Shown piece after piece: positions 18,299-30,619 of a stretch of DNA of 39,535 bases. The position numbers and the translations under genes were made by a program. The stretch is from Nocardiopsis salina YIM 90010 (lineage in GTDB: Bacteria; Actinomycetota; Actinomycetes; Streptosporangiales; Streptosporangiaceae), in assembly GCF_000341025.1 (NCBI RefSeq), contig NZ_ANBF01000153.1:1-39535 (forward strand), in the 5' to 3' direction. A model generated the notes under the pieces. That model saw only the letters and a list, made by a program, of their open reading frames with translations. It had not been told where the DNA came from and ran no database searches. The first letter of the stretch is position 1. Each line of letters starts with the position of its first letter.

Positions 18299-18371
18299 TA
18301 CCCCCGAGCGGATTCGAACCGCCGTTACCGCCTTGAGAGGGCGGCGTCCTGGGCCACTAGACGACGGGGGC
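18299..18371 (-). tRNA. tRNA-Glu (CTC), copy 1, CCA encoded
   Basis: A 73-nt cloverleaf on the minus strand. The anticodon stem CCGCC/GGCGG holds the loop CTCTCAA, giving anticodon CTC. The T-loop is GTTCGAATC. The acceptor stem GCCCCCG pairs with CGGGGGT, with a G-T end pair. The bases after position 73 are CCA. Identical to the copy at 18492-18564. Confidence 0.95.
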
Positions 18372-18450
18372 CCGTGGTCTGCCGTGTGCGATGCGCTGGA
18401 AAGCCATCGTACCCGGCCGAACCGGACATCGGCACCGTGTGCCGACCGAC

Positions 18451-18476
18451 AAGAAGGCTCCCACGGCGTGGGAGCC
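18451..18476 (-). terminator. Terminator between the two tRNA-Glu genes
   Basis: A perfect 9-bp stem GGCTCCCAC / GTGGGAGCC with a 3-base loop, followed on the minus strand by TTCTTGT. It implies that copy 1 has its own promoter; ATCGTA at 18406-18411 (TACGAT on the minus strand) is a possible -10. Confidence 0.75.
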
Positions 18477-18491
18477 ACCCCTGCACTTCCG

Positions 18492-18564
18492 TACCCCCGA
18501 GCGGATTCGAACCGCCGTTACCGCCTTGAGAGGGCGGCGTCCTGGGCCACTAGACGACGGGGGC
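18492..18564 (-). tRNA. tRNA-Glu (CTC), copy 2
   Basis: The same 73 bases as the copy at 18299-18371, including anticodon CTC. The bases after position 73 read CGG, so CCA must be added after transcription. Confidence 0.95.
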
Positions 18565-18628
18565 CTTCTGCGGAACCCGAGGGTTCCTCGTTCTCTCCCG
18601 AGGCCCGGAGGCCGTTCGGTGGAACGTG

Positions 18629-18700
18629 CTGGGGTACCAGGACTCGAACCTAGACTAAGTGAACCAGAATCACTCGTGCTGCCGATTACACCATACCCCA
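18629..18700 (-). tRNA. tRNA-Gln (CTG)
   Basis: A 72-nt cloverleaf on the minus strand with acceptor stem TGGGGTA/TACCCCA. The anticodon arm is AGTGA-TTCTGGT-TCACT, anticodon CTG. The T-loop is GTTCGAGTC and the discriminator base is G. CCA is not encoded. First gene of the minus-strand tRNA group. Confidence 0.95.
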
Positions 18701-27573: not shown

Positions 27574-29187
27574 TCATCGGATCTGCGGGTACCCCTGGCG
27601 CAGGAGCCCGTAGGTGACGGCCTGCTCCAAGGCCACCCAGGAGGCGTCGACGACGTTGGGGCCCACGCCCACGGTCGTCCACTCCCCCGTGCCGTCGCTG
27701 AAGGTGATGAGGATGCGGGTGATGGCGTTGGTGCCCGAGGTTCCCTCGAGGATGCGGACCTTGTAGTCGGTCAGCTCCAGGCCGCCGAGCGCCGTGTAGA
27801 CGTTCTCCAGGGAGTTGCGCAGGGCGCGGTCCAGGGCGTTGACCGGGCCGTTGCCCTCCTCGGTGGCGATGATGCGCTCGCCCTTGACGCCGAGCTTCAC
27901 CGTCGCCTCGGTCAGGCTCTCGTCGGCTCCGCCGAGCAGGCCCACACCCTCGGAGGGGCGGCGTTCGGTGATCACACGCCAGGACTCGGTCTCGAAGTAG
28001 CGCACGGGGCGCCCCATCTCCTCGAGCACGAGCAGCTCCAGGGAGGCGTCGGCTGATTCGAAACTGTATCCGGACAGTTCCAGACCCTTGACCCGTTCGA
28101 CGATGCGGCCGGAGACCGCGCGGTCCTCGGACAGGTCGAGCCCGAGCTCCTGGGCCTTGAGTTCGATGGAGGCGCGCCCGGCCATGTCGGAGACGAGCAT
28201 GCGCATGCGGTTGCCGACCAGCTCGGGCTCGGTGTGCTGGTACAGGTCCGGGTCGACCTTGATCGCCGAGGCGTGGAGCCCGGCCTTGTGGGCGAAGGCG
28301 GACACCCCGACGTAGGGCTGGTGGGTGTCGGGGGCCAGGTTGACCAGGTCCGCGATGGCGGTGGAGACGCGGGTCATCTCCTCCAGGCAGCCCTCGGGCA
28401 GTACGTCGCGCCCCTGCTTGAGGGCGAGGGCCCCGACGACGGAGAAGAGGTTGGCGTTCCCGACGCGCTCGCCGTAACCGTTGGCGGTGCACTGCACGTG
28501 GGTGGCGCCGCCGTCGACGGCGGCGAGGGTGTTGGCGACCGCGCAGCCGGTGTCGTCCTGGGCATGGATGCCCAGTCGGGCCCCGGTGGCCTCGGCGACC
28601 TCGGAGACCACACGCGTGACGTCGGTGGGAAGCATCCCGCCGTTGGTGTCGCACAGGACGACGACGTCGGCGCCCGCCTCGGAGGCGGCGCGGACCACGT
28701 CGAGCGCATGGCCGGGGTCGTGGTGGTAGCCGTCGAAGAAGTGCTCGCAGTCCACGAACACCCGCTGCCCGTGCTCTCGCAGGTGGGCGACGGTGTCGGC
28801 GATCATGGCGAGGTTCTCGTCAGGGGTCGTGCGCAGGGCGCGCTCGACGTGTCGGGTGTCGCTCTTGGCGACGAGGGTGACGACCGGGGCACCGCTGTCT
28901 CGCAGGGCGGTCACCTGGGGGTCGTCGGCGGCCCGGACCCCGGCACGGCGGGTCGCGCCGAACGCGGTGAGGCGGGCGTGCTTCAGCGTCAGCTCTTGTG
29001 CGGCGCGCTCGAAGAACTCGGTGTCCTTGGGGTTGGCCCCCGGCCACCCTCCCTCGATGAAGGCGACCCCGAAGTCGTCGAGCAGCTTCGCGATGGCCAG
29101 CTTGTCGGACACACGGAGGTTGATGCCCTCGCGCTGGGCCCCGTCGCGCAGCGTGGTGTCGAAGACGTGGAAACTGTCGTCCCTCAT
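27574..29187 (-). CDS. cimA: Citramalate synthase
   Basis: A 537-residue enzyme of the LeuA/homocitrate synthase superfamily. It condenses pyruvate and acetyl-CoA to citramalate, a threonine-independent entry to isoleucine. The N-terminal TIM barrel has FDTTLRDGAQREGINL, VLCDTNGGMLPTDV, HAQDDTGCAVANTLAAV, and CTANGYGERVGNANL. A C-terminal regulatory domain follows from about residue 400, the allosteric site for isoleucine or leucine. The length and FDTTLRDGAQ start match the CimA branch rather than LeuA. The start is the ATG at 29187 with GGGAG nine bases before; the upstream 19 codons of open frame lie in the attenuator leader. It is controlled by a leader peptide and terminator upstream. 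Confidence 0.95.
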   Translation of the reverse strand: MRDDSFHVFDTTLRDGAQREGINLRVSDKLAIAKLLDDFGVAFIEGGWPGANPKDTEFFERAAQELTLKHARLTAFGATRRAGVRAADDPQVTALRDSGAPVVTLVAKSDTRHVERALRTTPDENLAMIADTVAHLREHGQRVFVDCEHFFDGYHHDPGHALDVVRAASEAGADVVVLCDTNGGMLPTDVTRVVSEVAEATGARLGIHAQDDTGCAVANTLAAVDGGATHVQCTANGYGERVGNANLFSVVGALALKQGRDVLPEGCLEEMTRVSTAIADLVNLAPDTHQPYVGVSAFAHKAGLHASAIKVDPDLYQHTEPELVGNRMRMLVSDMAGRASIELKAQELGLDLSEDRAVSGRIVERVKGLELSGYSFESADASLELLVLEEMGRPVRYFETESWRVITERRPSEGVGLLGGADESLTEATVKLGVKGERIIATEEGNGPVNALDRALRNSLENVYTALGGLELTDYKVRILEGTSGTNAITRILITFSDGTGEWTTVGVGPNVVDASWVALEQAVTYGLLRQGYPQIR

Positions 29188-29247
29188 GGGTGGATACTCC
29201 CGAAGGTGGATGCTGTGGTGTGGCCGATCCACCCCCGCCAACAAAAA

Positions 29248-29309
29248 AGACCCCTCGTGGACACGAGAGGTCTGCGCGCCGGCGGGGTCCGAATCGTCAG
29301 CCGGCGCGC
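29248..29309 (-). promoter_or_regulatory. Attenuator hairpins in the cimA leader
   Basis: Hairpin 1 pairs GCGCGCCGGC (29300-29309) with GCCGGCGCGC (29274-29283), perfect over 10 bp. The terminator pairs AGACCTCTCGTG with CACGAGGGGTCT (29248-29273, one G-T pair) and runs straight into TTTTTT (29243-29248). GACCCC in the loop of hairpin 1 (29284-29289) can pair with GGGGTC in the 3' arm of the terminator, a candidate antiterminator. Confidence 0.75.
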
Positions 29310-29338
29310 CTCACGATAATGAGTACCTGAGACGGCAT
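29297..29338 (-). CDS. Leader peptide of the cimA attenuator (13 residues, VLIIV)
   Basis: Minus-strand frame of 14 codons reading MPSQVLIIVRRAG and stop. Five consecutive codons (GTA CTC ATT ATC GTG) specify valine, leucine, isoleucine, isoleucine and valine, the end products of the pathway in which CimA acts. Arg-Arg-Ala-Gly codons and the stop form the 5' arm of a GC hairpin, followed by a T6 terminator and then cimA. This is the layout of ribosome-mediated attenuation: stalling at the branched-chain codons when these amino acids are scarce would favour read-through. No good ribosome site is seen, so it could be leaderless, with CAGACT as a -10 twelve bases before the ATG. Confidence 0.75.
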   Translation of the reverse strand: MPSQVLIIVRRAG

Positions 29339-29409
29339 GGTTTCAGTCTGCCACACGGTCGCGGGCTCCCCGCCCACCGGGGCCACCTGTCTCACCTGGT
29401 GAAACGAGA

Positions 29410-29503: not shown

Positions 29504-30619
<1,116 letters not shown>

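Follow-up and report, generated by a model that had tools for sequence, protein, structure and literature searches.

The citramalate synthase gene cimA of this Nocardiopsis is very likely governed by a ribosome-mediated transcription attenuator, in which, as read from the sequence, the supply of isoleucyl-tRNA would set the level of cimA expression. The element occupies positions 29338-29243 on the minus strand of the window (the whole stretch of 39,535 nucleotides that was analysed) and comprises a leader ORF, a GC-rich 10-bp hairpin (P1) and, running into six U, a second hairpin (T) that resembles a terminator; from the end of the U tract to the start of cimA there are 55 nt. The features of the locus are as follows.

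29504-30619, minus strand: ilvE, upstream neighbour ending at 29504, outside the element (PRK13357, 504.5 bits, cut-off 307)
29345-29350, minus strand: -10-like hexamer CAGACT, 6 nt 5′ of the leader start codon, as in a leaderless-type promoter
29297-29338, minus strand: predicted leader ORF MPSQVLIIVRRAG, with ATG at 29338 and stop TGA at 29299-29297; in-frame Ile leader in 156/156 cimA-linked sequences
29315-29320, minus strand: putative control codons ATT ATC (Ile7-Ile8); Ile-Ile conserved in 145/156
29274-29309, minus strand: hairpin P1, perfect 10 bp, arms 29309-29300 (GCGCGCCGGC) and 29283-29274 (GCCGGCGCGC); two-sided changes in 7/11 pairs (76 homologues)
29243-29273, minus strand: T, intrinsic-terminator-like hairpin, arms 29273-29263 and 29258-29248, U tract 29248-29243; two-sided changes in 6/10 pairs
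27574-29187, minus strand: cimA, citramalate synthase, start ATG at 29187, the predicted controlled gene (TIGR00977, 611.5 bits, cut-off 450)

The TIGR00977 score confirmed the downstream gene as cimA, as the initial annotation had proposed, and the leader ORF with five consecutive Val/Leu/Ile codons reported there was present, these being codons 5-9 (GTA CTC ATT ATC GTG; V L I I V). A leader ORF of this kind (ATG/GTG start, 6-20 codons) occurred a single time in the window, at the cimA leader, while a first-order Markov simulation (100 runs) gave an expected number of 0.07 per window. The first hairpin had been described as a perfect 10-bp stem overlapping the stop codon. The 10 bp were recovered, but the stop forms the start of the P1 loop and lies outside the stem, because the P1 5′ arm ends just upstream of it. 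For the terminator, the run of six T was located at 29248-29243, whereas the stem, previously given as 12 bp, contained 11 bp including one G-U, with a 4-nt loop (RNAfold); a twelfth pair would have to form across a 2-nt loop. The 116-nt region folded with -61.1 kcal/mol (z -4.09), and 0/200 shuffles were equally good.

Conservation of the leader and its stems

All 80 of the nearest cimA loci matched a search pattern that covers T and the run of Ile codons; their records are named Nocardiopsis, Glycomyces, Streptomonospora, Murinocardiopsis, Thermobifida, Streptomyces and Actinacidiphila. The initial annotation had stated that codons and stems not conserved among close relatives would argue against an attenuator, and no such loss was seen. 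In the 79 nearest loci analysed (duplicate L003 dropped), ATG or GTG stood exactly 18 nt upstream of the ATT ATY pair or its variant. The record labelled Glycomyces fuscus (L002 and L003) holds identical cimA leaders on two contigs and a protein 88% identical to the Nocardiopsis one, a case of duplicated contigs or a label problem.

A covariance model (R1), built from an alignment of 33 sequences (A1), matched 177/394 genomes of the class (E 0.01; the tool itself describes its model E-values as rough), and a cimA relative (E 1e-120) was found in 310/394. Among the R1 matches listed, 80 from 21 families were retrieved, with family f18 (taken as Streptomyces) and the window's genus excluded. All 80 were recovered on re-search, and cimA lay downstream on the same strand in 76/80; the cimA call at L190 comes from a contig that stops after 35 residues. 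The four matches without cimA were two ilvB leaders (L188 and L195) and two elements preceding a small ORF (L170 and L172). The latter (L170, G183:C37; L172, G102:C6) resemble a second Ile-coded attenuator copy, with leaders MFALVIIM and MFTPRIII, each before a stop, and the ORF that follows (~105 aa) matched an ACT domain weakly (Pfam ACT_4, E-values 0.0014 and 0.0037, neither reaching the cut-off). A second model (R2), built solely from the 76 cimA leaders, matched 254/394 class genomes, cimA and other genes being counted together. Twenty cimA loci were taken from genomes that R1 had not matched, and 11 of them had no R2 match either, so the element is not universal, and these loci suggest that the control is widespread yet dispensable. 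Among these 11, no R2 match was found upstream of cimA in 8/8 genomes looked at from family f17 (L208-L211, L214, L220-L222), or at the single f25-family cimA locus looked at.

Together, 156 cimA-linked leaders were available: the window, 79 of L001-L080 (L003 being the duplicate) and 76 of L119-L198. The sequence [TC]ANNNT ended 4-8 nt 5′ of the start codon in 123/156 of them, against a mean of 8.65 and a maximum of 18 in shuffles, and a Shine-Dalgarno-like sequence preceded the leader start in 1/156. By these sequence features the cimA leader ORF is of the leaderless type, in agreement with the leaderless leaders reported in S. lividans (PMC8079986).

We assessed the covariation of both stems in two alignments. 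In A1, 95.1% of the cells paired and 30 cells carried two-sided changes (0/500 shuffles), which fell in 3/21 pairs, a number that was not unusual (332/500 shuffles had as many). In A3, which holds 76 sequences fitted to the covariance model and is hence biased towards the model structure, 96.0% of the cells paired, 13/21 pairs changed on both sides (10/500 shuffles had as many) and 143 cells showed two-sided changes (0/500 shuffles). When the 3′ partners were shifted by 1-3 columns as a control, 32-64% of the cells paired. The changes in A3 were spread over both stems (7/11 pairs of P1 and 6/10 of T), and 4/11 pairs of P1 and 3/10 of T were invariant.

T could also simply end transcription of the preceding gene (ilvE in this genome), with the leader ORF merely incidental. 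In the window ilvE does lie upstream on the same strand, but among the 155 homologues it was the direct upstream neighbour in only 39. In another 41 it lay at a greater distance upstream, and in 75 no ilvE was found in the sequence covered, which for 5 of them was shorter than 1000 nt. Leader, P1 and T stay with cimA regardless, and both the Ile codons and the leaderless spacing are conserved. T as an ilvE terminator was rejected on the 39/155 count, and we consider this explanation very improbable.

Isoleucine control codons

In-frame Ile was present in 156/156 leaders, as Ile-Ile in 145, Ile-Thr in 6 and Ile-Met in 5. Neither Leu (5.9%) nor Val (8.0%) was fixed in these leaders, and more than half of the Val was the GTG start counted as Val. 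The initial annotation had proposed sensing of all three branched-chain amino acids, which we rejected because Ile alone is conserved among the 156 leaders. The alignment of relatives that it had called for thus gave stem covariation and conserved Ile codons, but not conserved Val or Leu codons. As aligned here, the conserved codons read isoleucine, not all three amino acids, and with covarying stems and conserved Ile control codons the assignment of a leader-peptide attenuator to cimA appears sound.

The counts carry some selection: 79 leaders were located by the pattern ATTA[TC][TCG], biased towards Ile codons though not towards any reading frame, and the other 76 came from a covariance model that includes the Ile-codon bases. 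As an independent check, nine cimA leaders used in neither model were inspected; all carried Ile, eight of them Ile-Ile. The leaders used AUU 223 times and AUC 114 times, whereas six window ORFs contained ATC 85 times and ATT once, which suggests that the locally rare Ile synonym is favoured. Seven Streptomyces loci (L015, L029, L037, L041, L043, L047 and L066) had one base fewer after the Ile codons, and their shifted frames met another stop a few codons on, so that the leader is kept short. At L169, L177, L179, L192 and L198 the cimA leader carries Ile-Thr in place of Ile-Ile (LITH, CITT, CITP); threonine is the precursor in the other isoleucine route.

Two explanations that dispense with codon reading were weighed against these data. 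The element might be a trans-acting or ligand-binding cis element (T-box, riboswitch or protein-binding RNA) with no translated leader, and the invariant pairs of P1 and T, more than pairing alone requires, would suit such an RNA. The start codon and in-frame Ile persist in 156/156 leaders despite a diverging peptide, however, and the seven base-deficient Streptomyces leaders regain a stop. One Rfam scan gave only tRNAs, elsewhere in the window, and nothing on the element; with E up to 5, Rfam 15 likewise gave nothing on the element and one match elsewhere, below its family's threshold, and 11 related cimA loci had no match. A riboswitch or T-box was rejected because no Rfam 15 family matched the element or these loci, and we regard the broader explanation as improbable. 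The tRNAs are three successive genes at window positions 18299-18700, minus strand (RF00005). Alternatively, the leader might encode a conserved small protein that is itself active, in keeping with the likeness of the peptides within Nocardiopsaceae and within Streptomyces. Across families, though, the Ile positions alone remain, and the 156 leaders comprise 99 distinct peptides; a conserved peptide was rejected on that ground and seems to us hardly credible.

Kindred leaders of ilvB, leuS and other genes

In 12 class genomes, R2 gave 19 loci (L237-L255), mostly lower-scoring, which included 8 before ilvB, 8 before leuS, 1 before cimA and 1 that fell in no class. The ilvB leaders among them included MRTRIVVLGLRAG and VRFGILVLH, and the leuS leaders MRHGLLLTGPR and VRGLLLLIGPR. 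The window genome's own ilvB is preceded by the leader VQSNNTLILVLGRRAAH, ending in a stop, a GCGCGC hairpin and a T tract (by eye), and scored 20.5 bits with R2. The codons carried on the common scaffold were thus Val/Leu/Ile before ilvB and Leu before leuS. Since a model built on cimA leaders matched those of ilvB and leuS, cimA can be regarded as a further member of a known attenuator kind, its codons suited to the amino acid that its product helps to make.

In a phylum sample of in-class and out-of-class genomes, R2 matched 49/296, and 37 of the 49 lay outside the class. The 18 R2 loci examined outside the class comprised 11 before ilvB, 2 before cimA relatives, 1 before a distant LeuA/CimA-like gene and 4 before neither. 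The two cimA relatives (52-54% identity) had in-frame leaders, MSASIIIIA at L275 and SIIIIR at L288, running to a stop, and the out-of-class genome with MSASIIIIA before cimA also carried MTTTSFVLILM, stop-terminated, before ilvB. By eye, other leaders outside the class, also ending in a stop, seem to be VIIIE at L284 before a 3-isopropylmalate dehydrogenase-like gene and MSQNLLLT at L272 before a LeuA-like gene, the latter gene having 28% identity to CimA; likewise by eye, those at L280 and L281 seem to precede prephenate dehydratase-like (VLLIT, then stop) and isocitrate lyase-like genes.

In E. coli trp and ilv attenuation, translation of the leader selects the hairpin, and the antiterminator is established there. 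The logic is common to the cimA element, in that leader translation would decide between hairpins, but the cimA leader is of the leaderless type. A close likeness is to the actinobacterial ilvB(N)C leaders (C. glutamicum ilvBNC, the ilvB-II motif, M. tuberculosis ilvB1, S. lividans ilvL), which share an ORF with control codons, a first hairpin and a U-tract terminator, several of them being leaderless; they differ in the gene controlled and in their mixed Val/Leu/Ile codons, where the cimA element has conserved Ile only. PMC10272879, PMC11857589 and PMC13236596 describe ilvB leaders of comparable architecture that respond to the growth medium, to their valine codons or to inhibition of the pathway. 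Control-codon mutations in the ilvB leader of S. coelicolor are reported to be without effect (PMC1262725), a result that counts against the codon-reading proposal.

The Streptomyces leuS attenuators (Seliverstov 2005; LeuL2 of S. lividans) have the same scaffold by R2 and differ from the cimA element in their Leu codons and their tRNA-synthetase gene; at the leuS locus L245, an ATG just upstream of the model start reads MRAVRLLLSEPR (by eye), which is the LeuL2 peptide given in PMC8079986. The LEU element upstream of leuA (Seliverstov 2005), compared by description, is likewise actinobacterial and has a leader ORF and a branched-chain pathway gene. It was set apart by its description as a conserved pseudoknot (PMC1262725), unlike the cimA element. 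The S. lividans leuA leader is said to be without a typical Rho-independent terminator (PMC8079986).

The initial annotation knew of no described case for citramalate synthase, and we likewise found no description of a cimA or citramalate synthase leader in the open literature or in Rfam; subscription papers and preprints lay outside the scope, and an earlier report may exist. In PMC8079986 the tally of leader peptides is eight, with cimA not among their genes, and the terms 'cima' and 'citramalate' do not occur there. What is new is the gene controlled and how widely the element occurs; the principle is already known.

Proposed switch and its meaning for isoleucine synthesis

We infer that the leader is translated, that T terminates transcription, that control runs in the direction given here and that P1 acts as antiterminator. 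For translation there is indirect evidence, in that the leaders conserve their start codon, frame and stop. Transcription would start at or beside the leader start codon, and a ribosome would load on the leaderless 5′ end. With isoleucine ample, the ribosome would clear AUU AUC, reach the stop and cover the P1 5′ arm; with P1 blocked in this way, T would fold and transcription would end upstream of cimA. With isoleucine scarce, the ribosome would stall on the Ile codons with its downstream edge at about the start of P1, P1 would form against the base of T, and RNA polymerase would continue into cimA. In the window, P1 could in addition extend into the T 5′ arm via GAG:CUC, and it did reach into that arm when the fold omitted the T 3′ arm.

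The spacing is consistent with this proposal. The last Ile codon started 8-11 nt 5′ of P1 in 141/155 homologues and T started 0-1 nt past P1 in 152/155 (L136 was skipped in the spacing and flank permutation analysis). By this geometry, a ribosome at the stop would mask part of the P1 5′ arm, while one at the Ile codons need not. The weakest point is the role of P1 as antiterminator, which was chosen because of the analogy with the M. tuberculosis ilvB1 and C. glutamicum models; the reverse role would fit almost as well. In the M. tuberculosis ilvB1 model (PMC13236596) the antiterminator is hidden by a ribosome that has reached the stop and can form when the ribosome stalls, and for C. glutamicum PMC11857589 describes a boundary trinucleotide common to antiterminator and terminator.

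A reversed version of the same attenuator, in which P1 is an anti-antiterminator (classical 1:2 pairing), is a serious possibility, though we hold it to be the less probable arrangement. A ribosome on the last Ile codon would then mask the start of the P1 5′ arm, so that the P1 3′ arm would be free to capture the T 5′ arm (2:3) and keep T from forming, and quick release of the ribosome would let both P1 and T form. The 8-11 nt spacing lies within the ribosome's downstream reach, pairing of the P1 3′ arm with the T 5′ arm appeared in many displayed folds when P1 was blocked, and P1 and T seem to change together in one family (L187 versus L193, by eye). The alternative helix is weak, however (mean -3.5 kcal/mol, against about -12 to -21 for T), and the permutation of the arms runs the wrong way overall: the own P1 3′ arm/T 5′ arm combinations gave -3.51 versus -3.84 kcal/mol for permuted ones, with 4988/5000 permutations at least as stable (one sequence, L171, was parsed wrongly in this test).

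For P1 as antiterminator, the co-adaptation test of the flank plus P1 with the T 5′ arm likewise ran the wrong way (own -30.76, permuted -31.32; 3000/3000 permutations at least as stable), and both permutation results count against this role. In masked folding of the 156 sequences, a ribosome on the Ile codons did not leave the T 5′ arm sequestered; the mean sequestered fraction was 0.23 without a ribosome and 0.36 with one at the stop, against 0.03 and 0.13 with the ribosome on the next-to-last and the last Ile codon, respectively. A conserved antiterminator was therefore found neither by ribosome-masked folding nor by arm permutation. The initial annotation had also proposed that a loop segment, GACCCC, can compete with the terminator arm GGGGTC. 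The sequence is present at 29289-29284, yet it was kept in only 5/11 distinct Nocardiopsaceae loci (L001, L002, L004-L012; by eye), with GACGCC in L002 and GACATC in L006, and this competition was rejected.

Tentatively, and with rather less confidence than we place in either role for P1, the leaders may represent one modular scaffold of the Actinomycetota (leaderless ORF, P1 and a terminator abutting it at 0-1 nt), re-used before cimA, ilvB, leuS, probably leuA and leuB, and a few other genes, with only the control codons swapped to fit the product. Such a scaffold would switch without a conserved separate antiterminator, P1 pressing on the base of the terminator.

CimA converts pyruvate and acetyl-CoA to citramalate and opens a threonine-independent isoleucine route. 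In the window's genome no place passed the cut-off for the threonine deaminase families TIGR01127 (best 255 bits) and TIGR02079 (best 173), the best threonine-deaminase-like place being G000:C89:18292-19248. These cut-offs are strict (of 14 control genomes, 5 reach the first and 3 the second), so the lack of a passing match no more than hints at citramalate as a possible main way to isoleucine in this Nocardiopsis.

The attenuator would extend a known type of amino-acid control to the citramalate synthase gene, in this Nocardiopsis and in many other actinobacteria, and it constitutes an RNA family with a covariance model that is absent from Rfam 15. The leaders form a natural set for studying the fit between codons and pathway on a single RNA scaffold, and may offer a handle on isoleucine-pathway engineering in Streptomyces. 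If the control is class-wide and isoleucine-only, it would provide a dedicated end-product switch for the CimA route beside the mixed-codon switch of ilvB.
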